A stretch of 64,000 nucleotides of DNA from Massilibacteroides vaginae. Lineage in GTDB: Bacteria; Bacteroidota; Bacteroidia; Bacteroidales; Tannerellaceae. Position numbers and translations under genes: made by a program. Position 1 is the first letter of the stretch; every line of letters starts with the position of its first letter. The notes beneath the pieces were generated by a model, which was not told the DNA's origin, made no database searches, and was given only the letters and a program-made list of their open reading frames with translations. The stretch is taken from NCBI RefSeq assembly GCF_900178525.1, contig NZ_FXDJ01000007.1, forward strand, positions 248,001-312,000, read 5' to 3'. This document shows, piece by piece, positions 2,741 to 22,453 of this stretch.

Positions 2741-2790
2741 TGATCAACCGTGTTATCAATCGTGCTTTCAACCGCCTATAAACATTGATT

Positions 2791-3001
2791 TTTTAAGCTA
2801 AAAACAGGCCTTGTTTTTCTGTTTTTTAGCGGTTTCCTATACTACTGACAATCAGCGCATTGTAGAGGCCGAAAAACATAAAGGTTATTTTTCGAAAAAT
2901 AAAGGATATATTTTGAAAAATAAAGGATATCTTTTTTTTTATATAGTATTATGAAAAAAGGCTTCATTTTAATGCTGACTTTTTTGAGCACTAATCCGAA
3001 G
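2791..3001 (+). repeat. Dispersed ~210-bp non-coding element, copy A
   Basis: This 211-bp block aligns with 49602-49809 and 63291-63498. All three start TTTTAAG(C/T)TA, carry CTGAYAATCAG at offset 54, and AAGGTTATTTTTC at offset 90. The latter is followed by two or three copies of the word ATAAAGGATAT. The 3' parts share a TTTAA-GCTGA-TTT region ending near TAATYCGR. It lies between dcuB and the DUF3791-like gene and contains no credible open frame. Its function is unknown. Confidence 0.8.
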
Positions 3002-3074
3002 TTAGAGTAGACAAAAAAACACTGCCAACCAGAAAAAAATAGTTGATCTCTTTCACTATTTAATTACGCCCCAT

Positions 3075-3139
3075 GCAGAGATCTCTCCACTTCGGTCGAG
3101 ATGACAGGGAGGGTGGTCGGGATGATAGTGAGGGTTGAT
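3075..3139. repeat. Direct repeat R1, copy 2
   Basis: Second copy of the block at 2645-2709, here with GATCTCTCCACTTCGGTCGA and GATGACAGGGAGGGTGGTCG. It ends about 25 bp after the 3' end of the gene at 3165-3386. Confidence 0.75.
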
Positions 3140-3164
3140 CCGATTGATATTATATCGCACAGAT

Positions 3165-3386
3165 TTATTTAATCTTTCCCATTTTAATTTCTGATTTCAA
3201 AATCTCATACACATACGCTGAACTTTCAATATATAAACCGGTAGCTTCGTCCGAAAGTTTTTCAAATGTTTCTGAGTTATGAAACATGACTATTGCTACA
3301 GGCATAGTCATATCATGATCCTCCATCAGATAAGTAATGATATCTTTTGTTATCCCCTCTATTAAATATTGTGCCTTTTTATTCAT
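3165..3386 (-). CDS. Small DUF3791-like protein of the DUF3990 module
   Basis: A 73-residue soluble protein with a C-terminus of the form TGLYIESSAYVYEILKSEIK. Short proteins of this kind commonly sit beside DUF3990 genes in Bacteroidota and Firmicutes; the DUF3791 label is from memory and tentative. It is the last of three co-oriented genes. An 84-bp gap separates it from the DUF3990 gene and holds an imperfect inverted repeat (AAACGA...TCGTTT, 3447-3472). It may act as a partner or part of the antitoxin. No catalytic motif or membrane segment is visible. Confidence 0.7.
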   Translation of the reverse strand: MNKKAQYLIEGITKDIITYLMEDHDMTMPVAIVMFHNSETFEKLSDEATGLYIESSAYVYEILKSEIKMGKIK

Positions 3387-3470
3387 ACGATAATAGTTTT
3401 TTATATTAAAGTAGTATAGAACTCACATAAACACTCATATTGGTGTAAACGAGCATTTCATATGTTCGTT

Positions 3471-3947
3471 TCATAACACATTAAGATATGCCGCAGCTTT
3501 CTGCGAACGAAAAAAATATTGAGAAGATATACGCTTGTACCTAAGCCCACTAACTAATGTTGGCAGGTCGATTATCCCATCATCGAAATTACGAAATAAT
3601 GTAGCTATTGTATCATCGGCTACGGGACCAATAACAATATCGTATTCATGGATAGGATGTACTTGCGTTCTGCTCCGATTGCACATAACAAACAAAGCCC
3701 ATTCCTCATCAGGATTTTCAAAACATTTGATCGACAAAGAAGAGGTATTGAATGCTGCCTCTTTATCAAATTCAAAAACAGTAACAATTGGTTCTCCACC
3801 ATAAATTGCTGCTGTACGCCTCGCCATCTGCATAGCCTGCTCCTTTATATCTGTAAGATAGAATCCTTGTCCAAAATCTTTATAAGGTTTGCATCTGGCA
3901 AAGTCTACGGTTTTAACAGCAATATTAGAGCCGTGAAAAAGTTTCAT
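3471..3947 (-). CDS. DUF3990 protein, ADP-ribosyltransferase-like candidate toxin
   Basis: The 158-residue protein has the layout of the ADP-ribosyltransferase fold. The start is LFHGSN with His5, followed by DFGQGFYLTD with Tyr30, then an acidic NPDEEWALFVMCNR at 78-91 (Glu81/Glu82). These fit an H-Y-E style active site, but the catalytic assignment is my inference. DUF3990 proteins lack an established activity as far as I know. Its ATG overlaps the stop of the upstream XRE gene by 4 bp (ATGA), so the two are translationally coupled. The order of regulator first, then enzyme, under one autoregulated promoter is typical of toxin-antitoxin or defence modules. Confidence 0.82.
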   Translation of the reverse strand: MKLFHGSNIAVKTVDFARCKPYKDFGQGFYLTDIKEQAMQMARRTAAIYGGEPIVTVFEFDKEAAFNTSSLSIKCFENPDEEWALFVMCNRSRTQVHPIHEYDIVIGPVADDTIATLFRNFDDGIIDLPTLVSGLRYKRISSQYFFRSQKAAAYLNVL

Positions 3948-18190: not shown

Positions 18191-18921
18191 TTTTTTCTTT
18201 TTTTAGTGGGTAATTTACCGTCTTCTTTCTTATATCCCATATCTATACGGAACATTTTCCCCATCAATGAGATGATTGTAGACTGTCGTTTCTGCATATA
18301 GACAGATGGTTTGGCGGAATTAAATCTGCGGGGGTTGGGTAGGCTGGCTGCTATCAACGCCGCCTCTGATTGCGTTAATTGATAGGCTTGCTTATCAAAA
18401 TGCAAGTTGGCAACGGCTTCCGCTCCGTAAATTCCATTCCCCATTTCGATCGAATTAAGGTAAACTTCCATAATCCGTTCTTTCCCCCATATCCATTCAA
18501 TAAGCAATGTAAAATAAACTTCTATACCTTTACGAATGTACGACTGTGCCGGCCACAGAAATACATTTTTAGCCGTCTGTTGAGAGATTGTACTCGCTCC
18601 GCGAACGCGCTTTCCACGTTCGGCTTCTTCACGGGCTTTCTGAATCTGCTCAACATCAAAACCGTCATGTTCAAGAAAGAGGTTGTCTTCTGAAGCCACA
18701 ACGGCCTGAACCAGCGGTTGGGCAATTTGTGATAAAGGCACCCAATGATGCTTAAGAGTTAACTCTTTCCCCTCCTTTTTTTGTTCATACAACCGTATAA
18801 ACATCAATGGAGTATAATAAACAGGAATGTATTTATAAACTACAACAGCGAGAATACTGGATATAAAAAAAAGTATCAGCAAGTTTCTCATCCAGATCAA
18901 AATACGTTTGAGTATCTTCAT
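18154..18921 (-). CDS. mtgA: Monofunctional peptidoglycan glycosyltransferase MtgA
   Basis: A GT51 enzyme that polymerises lipid II into glycan strands at the outer face of the inner membrane. A single N-terminal membrane segment (11-30) is followed by the glycosyltransferase domain: [16 protein letters not shown] with catalytic Glu78, [18 protein letters not shown], then [20 protein letters not shown] and [16 protein letters not shown]. At 255 residues it has a basic C-terminal tail that extends into lipB. It lacks a transpeptidase domain. Its leader contains the terminator of ompH. Confidence 0.95.
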
Positions 18922-18948
18922 ATAATTTGATTACAAAAAAAACCACAT

Positions 18949-18956
18949 CAAAGGTA
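18949..18956 (-). promoter_or_regulatory. -7 box of mtgA-lipB
   Basis: The reverse strand reads TACCTTTG (TAnnTTTG), 28 bp before the mtgA ATG. It abuts the T-tract of the ompH terminator. Confidence 0.55.
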
Positions 18957-18957
18957 A

Positions 18958-18990
18958 CAAAAAAGCGGTTTACGTTTCCGCAAACCGCTC
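18958..18990 (-). terminator. Terminator of the ompH gene
   Basis: On the reverse strand AGCGGTTT and AAACCGCT form an 8-bp stem around GCGGAAACGT, followed by a T-run. Confidence 0.85.
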
Positions 18991-19014
18991 TAAATAAAAC
19001 TGATATAAATATTG

Positions 19015-19623
19015 TTATTTGCTTGGTGACGTGTAATTCTTGTTCAGATACGCGATAATCTCAGCAGTAATGTCGTATGCATCGCCTGCTAAAAGAATAT
19101 TATCACCCATTGTGTTACTAAAAATCACCTGGTATCCCTTTGTTTGATTAAAAACTTTCAATTGAGCTACGATAGTATCCCGTAATTGTTCGTTTAGCTT
19201 TTGTTGTTCGATCATTAACTCTTGCGTCAAACGTTCGTCTAAAGCTTGTAATTCCTGTTGTTTGCCTAACAAACGTTGTTGTTCTTCTTGCGCGCGCTGC
19301 GGAGTTAAAAACGCGTTATTTTGATATTTACGTTCAAATTCCTGCATATCACTTCTCAAAGCATTTGCCTTTTGATTGATATTCAAACGGGAATCTTCCT
19401 GTTTTTTCATAATCACTTCATTCAGGTCTTTTGAATAATTATAATTCAATAAGAGAGAATCTACGTTTACATAAGCAATAGGTAATATACCGCTTACGCC
19501 TTCCGCTCCAGCCAGAACAGCCTGAGGAGATCCGGATTCTTTCTTCCCTGAAAAGTGCATTACGAATAAAATAATAACCGCTAAAGCAAGGACTCCGTTA
19601 ATGAGGTAGTTAATGTTCTTCAT
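19015..19623 (-). CDS. OmpH/Skp-family periplasmic chaperone
   Basis: A 202-residue protein with one N-terminal membrane or signal segment (residues 6-23), then IAYVNVDSLLLNYNYSKDLN at the start of the Skp/OmpH domain. A long charged coiled coil (about 75-160, rich in Q, E, L and K) forms the tentacles of Skp trimers. The end, GYQVIFSNTMGDNILLAGDAYDITAEIIAYLNK, is the family's conserved beta core. Skp proteins hold unfolded outer-membrane proteins in the periplasm. An IS1595-type element lies only 12 bp upstream of the start codon and separates the gene from its original leader. Confidence 0.9.
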   Translation of the reverse strand: MKNINYLINGVLALAVIILFVMHFSGKKESGSPQAVLAGAEGVSGILPIAYVNVDSLLLNYNYSKDLNEVIMKKQEDSRLNINQKANALRSDMQEFERKYQNNAFLTPQRAQEEQQRLLGKQQELQALDERLTQELMIEQQKLNEQLRDTIVAQLKVFNQTKGYQVIFSNTMGDNILLAGDAYDITAEIIAYLNKNYTSPSK

Positions 19624-19634
19624 AAAGTCTAAAT

Positions 19635-19642
19635 TAAATCTT
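19635..19642. repeat. Target-site duplication, left copy
   Basis: TAAATCTT directly precedes the left end of the insertion sequence and is repeated at 20623-20630. Confidence 0.92.
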
Positions 19643-20622
19643 TTGGTATAGGCGTTTAGACCGCACTAATTAATTATTTGATTGTAAGCGAATAGGATTA
19701 TTTAAAACCATTCTTTTTATGAGTATATCGAATATTGTCTCCATATTTGAACGTCTGTTATACCTAAAGTGGTATTCATCAAGGTATCCTTGAAGACGTT
19801 CTTTGGTACAATGATGATGAATTCCTCTGAGCCAACCTTTCAGGTTCATAATGTGGATATGTAAATCCTTGAAGTTTTTTCCGTCGTCAGATTTTACCTG
19901 TTCGAGATTTGGAAAATCTTTTTTCAAGGGTATATAACCTCTCCATTCGTCAGTAATTATTCTTGCATCTTTACTGATATATGATTCAAAGAAAGGACGA
20001 AAAGAAGCCGAAGAAGCATCCTCGATACATTGAGCATAAGCTCGTCCAACTCCACTCTCAACTATTTCGAGAGCGACAATGACAAGCTTCTTTTCTCCTT
20101 TGTAACGACCTCGTTTCCCTTCTTCTTCACCGCCAATATAGAATTCATCAACATGAACTAGTCCTTTGATTAAATGCTTTTTACTGCTTTGCATTGCTTG
20201 CTGTATTTTCCATTTGAACTCCCAGCAAGTTTTTTGTCGCAGTTCATATTCTTGAGACAACTCTAAAGAGGACATTCCTTTCTTTTTGGTACTTATCTTA
20301 AATGCAATATGAAAAGCCAGGTGCAAAGGAAACTTACATTTATCAAACATAGTTCCTGAAGTGGGACTTTCGTCATATTTACATCTTGTACATCTTCTTG
20401 AAAAAGGTCTTACGCCTTTGCAAAAATTTGTATGTCCACATCTTTTACATTGATAAGCGTTATCATTCCATTTGATTGCTGATATGTATTCATAGCAGAC
20501 TTCATCTGAGCTAAAAGTATTGTAAAATTTGATTGAGTTCACTCCTAAAAATCGTTTTCGTTCATTCATGCTACAAAGGTAGCAAATCATAAAAATCAGT
20601 GCGGTCTAAACGCCTATACCAA
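19643..20622 (-). mobile_element. Complete IS1595-family insertion sequence, 980 bp
   Basis: The element is bounded by perfect 25-bp terminal inverted repeats, beginning TTGGTATAGGCGTTTAGACC at 19643-19667 with the reverse complement at 20598-20622. It is flanked by 8-bp direct repeats (TAAATCTT), the size normal for IS1595. It carries one intact transposase gene on the reverse strand. Exact ends and duplications indicate a recent insertion. It stands between a small membrane-protein gene and ompH, all on the same strand, so it splits what looks like a two-gene unit. Confidence 0.95.
19670..20590 (-). CDS. IS1595-family (ISXO2-like) transposase
   Basis: The 306-residue protein has an N-terminal zinc ribbon (CKRCGH near 52 and CTRCKYDESPTSGTMF near 87) and a DDE-type ISXO2 domain. 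The acidic residues lie in LVHVDEFYIGG, RIITDEWRGY and YLDEYHFRYNRR (the last following GIHHHCTKE). The frame is complete with no disruptions. A second ATG at 20569 (MNERKRF) may be the true start, giving 299 residues. A TACCTTTG -7-like box sits at 20574-20581 between the two candidates. Confidence 0.93.
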   Translation of the reverse strand: MICYLCSMNERKRFLGVNSIKFYNTFSSDEVCYEYISAIKWNDNAYQCKRCGHTNFCKGVRPFSRRCTRCKYDESPTSGTMFDKCKFPLHLAFHIAFKISTKKKGMSSLELSQEYELRQKTCWEFKWKIQQAMQSSKKHLIKGLVHVDEFYIGGEEEGKRGRYKGEKKLVIVALEIVESGVGRAYAQCIEDASSASFRPFFESYISKDARIITDEWRGYIPLKKDFPNLEQVKSDDGKNFKDLHIHIMNLKGWLRGIHHHCTKERLQGYLDEYHFRYNRRSNMETIFDILIKRMVLNNPIRLQSNN

Positions 20623-20630
20623 TAAATCTT
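20623..20630. repeat. Target-site duplication, right copy
   Basis: TAAATCTT follows the right terminal repeat and matches 19635-19642 exactly. Confidence 0.92.
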
Positions 20631-20647
20631 TATTTATTTTTTAGTTT

Positions 20648-20860
20648 TTAAATTTCATTCAATCGTTCATATAAATTCTTTTTGCTGTTCGCATGGGCAT
20701 GTTGCGACTGAGCACAAGAAATCCCCCGGTCTCTCAGCGCTTTGTTTCCGCTTACGTGTGTATTTGGAAACTCACCATTCTTCTTAAGTATTATATTCAC
20801 ACATAGTAATATAATTGAAATAACAAGAATTATGACTGTAAGTAATAAGGTTGTGAGCAT
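20648..20860 (-). CDS. Small single-pass membrane protein of unknown function
   Basis: A 70-residue protein with one strong membrane helix (residues 3-26). A compact motif follows: FPNTHVSGNKALRDRGISCA, with His and Cys, then a polar tail. I recall similar short proteins annotated 'membrane or secreted protein' in Bacteroidales, which argues that it is real; no function is known to me. It has its own -7 box (20881-20888). Before the IS landed it would have been the gene directly upstream of ompH, about 45 bp away. Confidence 0.7.
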   Translation of the reverse strand: MLTTLLLTVIILVISIILLCVNIILKKNGEFPNTHVSGNKALRDRGISCAQSQHAHANSKKNLYERLNEI

Positions 20861-20880
20861 TTTCTATATATTTGTAGGTG

Positions 20881-20888
20881 CAAATATA
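20881..20888 (-). promoter_or_regulatory. -7 box of the small membrane-protein gene
   Basis: The reverse strand reads TATATTTG, 20 bp before the start at 20860. It may once have served ompH as well. Confidence 0.55.
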
Positions 20889-20995
20889 AGAGTTTAAGTG
20901 ATTATAAAGTATTTAATTCTATAATTTTTCTGTTCATCCGCCATTGTACCTGTTGGTTGGAATGGCGGAATAACCTCAATAAACATTATAATGAT

Positions 20996-22453
20996 ATGAA
21001 AATTACGGATCTAAACCCGAAAATCGTATGGAAGTTCTTCCATGAAATCACACAAGTTCCCCGCCCGTCAAAAAAAGAAGGAAAAATAATTCAGTATCTT
21101 GAAAATTTCGCAAAAGAGTACAATATCGCCATCAAGAAAGACGAAGCCGGCAATATACTAATGTCGAAACCGGCAACTCCCGGCTACGAAAACCTGCCTA
21201 CTGTTATTCTTCAATCGCACGTAGATATGGTTTGCGAAAAGAATAGCGGAACAACGCACGACTTTGATAACGACCCGATTGAAACAATTGTTGACGGTGA
21301 TTGGCTACGTGCTAATGACACCACATTAGGTGCAGACAATGGCGTAGGTGTTGCCGCTGAATTAGCGATTCTGGCTTCTGATGATATTGAGCACGGACCT
21401 ATCGAATGTTTATTCACCATTGATGAAGAAACAGGACTTACCGGAGCAAAAGAACTGAAAGCCGGCTTTATGACAGGCGAAATATTGCTGAACTTAGACA
21501 GTGAAGACGAAGGTGAAATTTTTATCGGATGTGCCGGTGGAAAGGATACACAAGCGTTGTTTACGTTCAAACCGACTGCCACCGATCCTGCTTTACACTA
21601 TCTCCGAGTTGATGTTAAAGGTCTTAACGGTGGGCACTCCGGAGGCGAAATACATAAAGGATTGGGTAATGCAAATAAGATTTTGGTTCGCTTCCTTTAT
21701 CTGCTGCAACAAAAATATGACATCACACTATGCGAAATCAACGGAGGTAACCTTCGCAATGCCATTGCTCGTGAGGCATACGCTGTGATAGGAATTCCGG
21801 CAAGTGCTAAAGAAGATGTACGTGTAATGCTGAATAATTTTGCGGCTGATGTAGAAAACGAGTTAAAACACGTAGATAAAAACGTGAAATTATTATTGGA
21901 ATCTGCCACTCGTCCGGAAACGGCTATCGATAAAGAAACAGCAGGAAAGATAATCTTTTCTCTACAAGCTGCTCCGCATGGTGTTATCGGTATGAGCCAC
22001 GAAATTGAAGGCTTGGTGGAAACTTCGACAAACCTGGCTTCTGTCAAAACATTGGCAGACAACACCGTCTTAGTAGGAACCAGTCAGCGCAGTTCTATCG
22101 AATCAAACAAATTAGCCGTTGCTAATCAGGTTGCTGCTACTTTCCTATTGGCCGGAGCAAAAGTAACCCATGGTGACGGATATCCGGGATGGGCTCCGAA
22201 TGCAGAGTCTTTAATTATGCAAGTGGCACAAGATTCATATAAGCGTTTATTCGGAAAAGAAGCAGCGATCAAAGCGATCCACGCAGGTTTGGAATGCGGA
22301 CTTTTCCTTGAAAAGTATCCTTATCTGGATATGATTTCATTCGGTCCTACCTTGCGTGACGTTCACTCGCCAAACGAACGAATCCAGATCAGCACCGTTG
22401 ATCTGTGGTGGAAGCATTTGCTGGATGTATTAAAAAGTATTCCTGCAAAATAA
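20996..22453 (+). CDS. pepD: Aminoacyl-histidine dipeptidase (Xaa-His dipeptidase)
   Basis: A cytosolic M20C zinc peptidase that cleaves dipeptides such as carnosine-like Xaa-His. Metal and catalytic motifs are SHVDMVCEKN (His75, Asp77), TTLGADNGVGVA (Asp114), TIDEETGLTGA (Glu144/145) and LLNLDSEDEGEIFIGCAGG (abridged: LDSED). The C-terminal HAGLECGLF and SFGPTLRDVHSPNE stretches complete the site. The ATG at 20996 (MKITDLNP) is preferred to an upstream TTG that adds 13 non-conserved residues; it gives 485 residues, the normal length. Confidence 0.95.
   Translation: MKITDLNPKIVWKFFHEITQVPRPSKKEGKIIQYLENFAKEYNIAIKKDEAGNILMSKPATPGYENLPTVILQSHVDMVCEKNSGTTHDFDNDPIETIVDGDWLRANDTTLGADNGVGVAAELAILASDDIEHGPIECLFTIDEETGLTGAKELKAGFMTGEILLNLDSEDEGEIFIGCAGGKDTQALFTFKPTATDPALHYLRVDVKGLNGGHSGGEIHKGLGNANKILVRFLYLLQQKYDITLCEINGGNLRNAIAREAYAVIGIPASAKEDVRVMLNNFAADVENELKHVDKNVKLLLESATRPETAIDKETAGKIIFSLQAAPHGVIGMSHEIEGLVETSTNLASVKTLADNTVLVGTSQRSSIESNKLAVANQVAATFLLAGAKVTHGDGYPGWAPNAESLIMQVAQDSYKRLFGKEAAIKAIHAGLECGLFLEKYPYLDMISFGPTLRDVHSPNERIQISTVDLWWKHLLDVLKSIPAK

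Follow-up and report, generated by a model that had tools for sequence, protein, structure and literature searches.

Insertion sequences of the IS1595 family carry terminal inverted repeats and generate an 8-bp target duplication. In some other insertion sequences, such as IS10 and IS50, RNA structure hides the start of the transposase gene. Hiding of the transposase start by RNA structure is also described for IS200 (PMC3196728, PMC12594629). Two Bacteroides elements are listed as promoting resistance genes, namely IS1186 for cfiA and IS1168 for nimA and nimB (PMC9330008). In Amoebophilus asiaticus, a member of the Bacteroidetes, contiguous transcripts are reported for 9 of 10 tested pairs of an insertion sequence and a gene on the same strand (PMC3196728).

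Here, we characterized a 980-bp element that lies directly upstream of an ompH gene in a stretch of 64,000 nucleotides (the window). It is a confirmed, recent and ordinary IS1595-family insertion in a conserved two-gene unit, and it shares with the family (NF033547; PF12762) the transposase profile, a single transposase gene, perfect terminal repeats and the 8-bp duplication. As with IS1186 and IS1168, the insertion is directly upstream of a gene and in the same bacterial order; unlike in those cases, the end facing ompH has no exact -7 box, and ompH was probably not silent before but served by an upstream promoter. As in IS200, IS10 and IS50, a predicted hairpin lies by the transposase start codon and would be carried by RNA from outside, but in this element the -7 box of the promoter itself forms the basis of the hairpin, and its function as a shield is a prediction. 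The locus resembles the Amoebophilus asiaticus pairs in that an insertion sequence and a host gene lie on the same strand of a Bacteroidetes genome, although those pairs were tested by RT-PCR (PMC3196728), whereas the ompH locus is known from sequence alone. The element and its parts are as follows.

19643..20622, minus strand: 980-bp IS1595-family insertion sequence (terminal repeats matching at 25/25 bases, family profiles, three genomic copies without differences)
19635..19642, no strand assigned: target duplication TAAATCTT, 8 bp, ompH side (sequence)
20623..20630, no strand assigned: target duplication TAAATCTT, 8 bp, small-gene side (sequence)
19643..19667, minus strand: terminal inverted repeat, ompH side (end comparison)
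20598..20622, minus strand: terminal inverted repeat, transposase-start side (end comparison)
19670..20569, minus strand: transposase gene, 299 codons when read from MNERK, its likely start (profiles, alignment of relatives)
20574..20581, minus strand: exact -7 box TACCTTTG, predicted transposase promoter, 4 nt 5' of the ATG (box scan)
20569..20584, minus strand: palindrome TGCTAC-CTTT-GTAGCA spanning the -7 box, RNA hairpin predicted at -6.6 kcal/mol (fold prediction)

The earlier note on this DNA had described an IS1595-type element with perfect 25-bp ends, exact flanking duplications and an intact transposase reading in the same direction as ompH, and we found this description to be accurate. 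The first 25 bases of the two ends match at 25/25 positions, TAAATCTT directly flanks both ends, and the transposase and ompH are both on the minus strand. The distance to the ompH start, given as 12 bp, needed a slight correction: the element lies 19 nt and the duplication 11 nt from the ATG. The transposase frame is open, with a longest ORF of 306 codons (19670-20590), and its start is likely at 20569 rather than 20590 because near relatives align from the codon at 20569. The protein matched both NCBIfam NF033547 (3.9e-52, 177 bits, cut-off 75) and Pfam DDE_Tnp_IS1595 (PF12762; 5.4e-25, 88.6 bits, cut-off 27), and a candidate N-terminal zinc ribbon (PF12760) scored 24.2 bits, just below its cut-off of 25.4. 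Cysteines 48, 51, 67 and 70 and the acidic residues D148, D214 and E272, a candidate catalytic triad, are invariant across 7 aligned transposases. Given the profile scores above cut-offs, the terminal repeats and the 8-bp duplications, the element belongs to the IS1595 family.

Three full copies of the element are present in the genome (contigs C2, C3 and C4). They are 100% identical over 980 bp, and their 8-bp duplications differ (TAAATCTT, AAAGTTTA and TTGTTTTA). No match to the element was found in the two other genomes of the same genus (2/2), and both keep the empty site, with a gap of 31-32 nt between the small gene and ompH compared with 36 nt once the window flanks are rejoined. Because the copies are identical with different duplications and the congeners are without the element, the insertion is recent, as the earlier note had proposed, and it is not by chance that a perfect 25-base inverted repeat and an exact 8-base duplication occur together at three genomic sites. 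It is an ordinary genome change but a clean one, with the prior state visible in the congeners, and it offers a natural test of what an insertion sequence that lacks a recognisable outward promoter does to an operon in Bacteroidales.

Relatives of the element, many of them partial, were found at the family level in 13/123 genomes by DNA and in 8/123 genomes by protein (1e-30); they were found in 17/295 genomes at the order level (1e-60) and in 10/395 at the class level (1e-50), each count including the element's own genome. The closest fetched relative from other genomes, L073, has 77% DNA identity over 979 columns. A protein search of viral contigs returned two relatives. Carriage of the element itself on a plasmid or phage was considered and rejected, as blastn of both collections gave no match. 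With regard to the other two copies in the genome, one (L021, 2001-2980) is located between an HTH gene and a DUF1847 gene in the opposite orientation, and the other (L022, 2001-2980) is located between yqeY and an EamA transporter gene in the same orientation, 92 bp before the EamA ORF; the duplications of both are AT-rich.

The insertion site falls within a unit with the following features.

19015..19623, minus strand: ompH paralogue, intact, 202 aa (Pfam OmpH 5.2e-21; 85-87% identical in two congeners)
20648..20860, minus strand: conserved small membrane-protein gene, 70 aa, first in the unit (homologous ORF in 25/26 related loci)
20881..20888, minus strand: exact -7 box TATATTTG, conserved promoter of the small gene-ompH unit (box scan, related loci)
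18962..18991, minus strand: strong terminator-like hairpin after ompH, 13 pairs (terminator scan)

To characterize this unit, we used 29 related ompH loci, of which 26 were usable after leaving out L038, L049 and L051, which had too little upstream DNA. A homologous small ORF lies directly 5' of ompH in 25 of these, with a gap of 9-47 nt (homology judged by eye), and an exact TATATTTG box (TAnnTTTG) is found 19-23 nt 5' of the small gene in 24/26 loci. From the small-gene start to ompH, none of those 24 loci has any exact box; the box of L033, which the script listed as internal (longer frame), was reassigned by eye to 20 nt 5' of the small gene. The exceptions are L050, which has the small ORF without the box, and L052, which has an unrelated ORF. 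With one conserved box ahead of the small gene and none internal, the two genes look like one unit, and they probably form one transcription unit with one promoter at 20881-20888. The earlier note had proposed that a -7 box at these positions probably served both genes; the exact box is indeed there (20888-20881, minus strand), and it is the only one conserved. The element sits between ompH and this probable promoter, also as claimed, and separates the two. The effect of the insertion should stop at ompH because the 13-pair terminator-like hairpin follows that gene.

The 70-aa protein had no Pfam or NCBIfam match at E 0.001; it appears to span the membrane once and carries a conserved motif resembling FPNTHxxGNxAL-KGIxC. 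The unit promoter (20867-20888) forms an almost perfect palindrome in which both strands carry an exact TATATTTG box, and the palindrome is present in 23/26 related loci (by script). It may be an operator, or a two-way promoter that also serves the divergent gene at 20957-22453.

We consider it likely that ompH, now separated from the small gene, is still transcribed by read-through of the element. A recently active IS1595-family element transposed into the short gap between the small gene and ompH, oriented with transcription and with no recognisable outward promoter at its ompH end. Polymerase from the old promoter (20881-20888) would cross the whole element into ompH, RNA from the transposase's own -7 box (20574-20581) would also extend into ompH, and the transposase-ompH messages would terminate at the hairpin after ompH. 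The earlier note had named a separate promoter in the element's final 80 bp as a finding that would refute its reading; an exact-box scan found no exact TAnnTTTG box there, so we rejected an outward promoter of this host type at this end and regard read-through as the likeliest source of ompH mRNA. Exact boxes upstream of ompH, in the right direction and at likely gene starts, are found at 20888-20881 and 20581-20574, and a third at 20351-20344, within the transposase frame, could contribute to ompH transcription. The first two have no TTG at a distance of 17-23 nt upstream, so it is on the -7 box that both predicted promoters rest. The transposase stop is 46 nt 5' of the ompH ATG, and since the duplication gives back the 8 bases it covers, the 19 nt before this ATG read as they did before the insertion. 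Promoter activity, transcripts and transcript amounts at this locus are inferred from the DNA.

Alternatively, read-through may end inside the element, such that the insertion largely silences the window ompH and the other OmpH paralogues make the loss tolerable. Transcription into ompH could be cut by the one terminator-like site found on the minus strand within the element (20025-20008), or by Rho-dependent loss if the transposase is untranslated, and the hairpin predicted at the start of the transposase gene could keep read-through RNA from being translated and expose it to Rho; three other OmpH-family genes are present in the genome. However, with 7 pairs, of which 3 are G-C, the terminator-like site is weak, and the 3 such sites in 18900-21100 compare with a shuffled mean of 1.3, so a single site may be chance. 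Moreover, past the old promoter the transposase brings a -7 box of its own, and ompH is intact. We regard silencing as an unlikely outcome. A promoter of its own right before the ompH ATG, with the insertion changing little, seems to us improbable. The nearest candidate box to ompH, TAATTTAG at 19636-19629, falls outside the element and is one mismatch from the -7 consensus, and about 20 nt before ompH are largely alike among relatives (by eye), but the window contains, per kb and strand, 8.4 boxes that differ from the consensus at no more than one position, the 24 loci above lack an exact box anywhere from the small-gene start to ompH, and such a promoter would leave almost no leader.

Two further analyses were discarded. 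A sigma-70 scan returned 6 sites against a shuffled mean of 7.9, which is no excess, and was set aside because the phylum is reported to use the TAnnTTTG box (PMC7366714). A structural change at the ompH start was not a useful candidate, as folds of -12.8 kcal/mol after and -11.1 kcal/mol before the insertion were uninformative; in local folds, the mean unpaired value at the start was 0.55 after versus 0.47 before.

Two of the three other OmpH-family genes are located behind a bamA-like gene and one adjoins a guaA-like gene (labels recognised from sequence and a POTRA match). As the pair behind the bamA-like gene is intact, the window ompH appears to be an accessory paralogue, and the likeliest outcome of the insertion would be an accessory ompH expressed by read-through. 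Loss of this gene may be mild, given the two OmpH genes behind the POTRA-domain (bamA-like) gene and the paralogue by the guaA-like gene. The outer-membrane stress that the earlier note had expected is thus a weaker prediction, since the window ompH differs from the bamA-linked pair, which stays intact.

Next, we considered the palindrome at the transposase promoter. In B. thetaiotaomicron, the promoter motif is centred at -7, and two transposases are named among the few genes whose leaders are shorter than 10 nt (PMC7366714). Given a motif centred at -7 and a box 4 nt 5' of the ATG, the RNA start is predicted at or next to the AUG, and the element's own transposase RNA is predicted to be leaderless. 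It would lack the hairpin because the hairpin is built on the -7 box, and the hairpin is expected only in RNA starting upstream of the palindrome (20569-20584). We tentatively suggest, with more doubt than belief, that, in the clade of Bacteroidales IS1595 elements to which this one belongs, the 16-base palindrome serves as the -7 box and also shields against translation. RNA begun at the box would start at the AUG, without the left arm of the hairpin, and be translated; RNA from a host promoter would carry the whole hairpin beside the AUG and stay untranslated. If true, the element would tolerate an active operon, such as the one before ompH, without a rise in transposase, and the hairpin would illustrate how elements in bacteria without Shine-Dalgarno signals escape activation by their neighbours. 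This promoter hairpin may be a modest lead; we found no published description of such a promoter palindrome in a literature search outside most subscription journals.

The least biased set consists of 8 relatives found by protein search with a complete 5' end (L053, L054, L056, L065, L070, L073, L074 and L075; 62-76% protein identity). The exact box is 4 nt before the ATG in 8/8 of these and the stem is present in 5/8. Across all 20 aligned elements, own included, the exact box is found in 19 and a stem of at least 5 pairs beside the AUG in 15 (missing in L074, L065, L062, L070 and L135), counts in which L131, L134 and L135, from a search imposing box and spacing, and several other rows, from DNA matches including the box, are no evidence for either because the search presupposed them. 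The predicted stem energy is -5.7 to -9.4 kcal/mol in 13 of the 14 stem-bearing relatives and only -1.8 in L131, whose stem has a different arm sequence and a larger loop. We left out L067, which nearly duplicates L054 and shares its genome, as well as repeats of identical loci and pattern matches not leading into a transposase start. Several rows are cut or decayed (L068 has 3 open codons and L131 has 21), and L131 owes its place in the family to 15 aligned residues (E 0.013) and its end sequence.

As a distant contrast set, we used 29 transposase starts at 32-49% identity, 26 of them with a usable ATG. An exact box 4 nt before the ATG was found in 0/26; in 7/26 an exact box lies no more than 70 nt away (17-23 nt from the ATG, 0-3 stem pairs), and the remaining 19/26 have none within 70 nt. 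Among 259 distinct exact boxes (window plus 29 ompH loci), a 6-pair stem occurs only at the element's own box, and 5-pair stems occur at five, all of them the opposite-strand box of the small gene-ompH promoter. In Prevotella bryantii, start-region stems of -5.2 and -11.1 kcal/mol are reported to cut protein to 0.12 and 0.007 (PMC3155529). In the window copy, the hairpin pairs only the A of the AUG, and the in-frame ATG at 20590, 5' of the hairpin, could start translation on read-through RNA. The palindrome could also serve DNA binding instead.

A strong claim of covariation for the hairpin was rejected as too weak. The share of paired cells was 82.9% versus 79.1% when shuffled (4/500 shuffles reach 82.9%), and the covariation score was 0.169 versus 0.116 (8/500). 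There were 3 double-changed cells versus 0.7 (14/500), and 2 pairs with double changes versus 0.7 (59/500). Some slid structures had equal or higher numbers of double-changed cells (up to 5, at slide -1), and the paired cells of slid structures were far fewer, at 13.6-54.3%.

Two further loci were noted. L065, from the same-family genome G056, has two different IS1595-like elements (1501-2468 and 2767-3475) near each other on one strand, the second of which aligns only from query position 269 onward. L144 has an IS1595-like end and a similar box region followed by an open frame, MAKVIRIV..., without a transposase match, and is perhaps a recombined or non-autonomous element.
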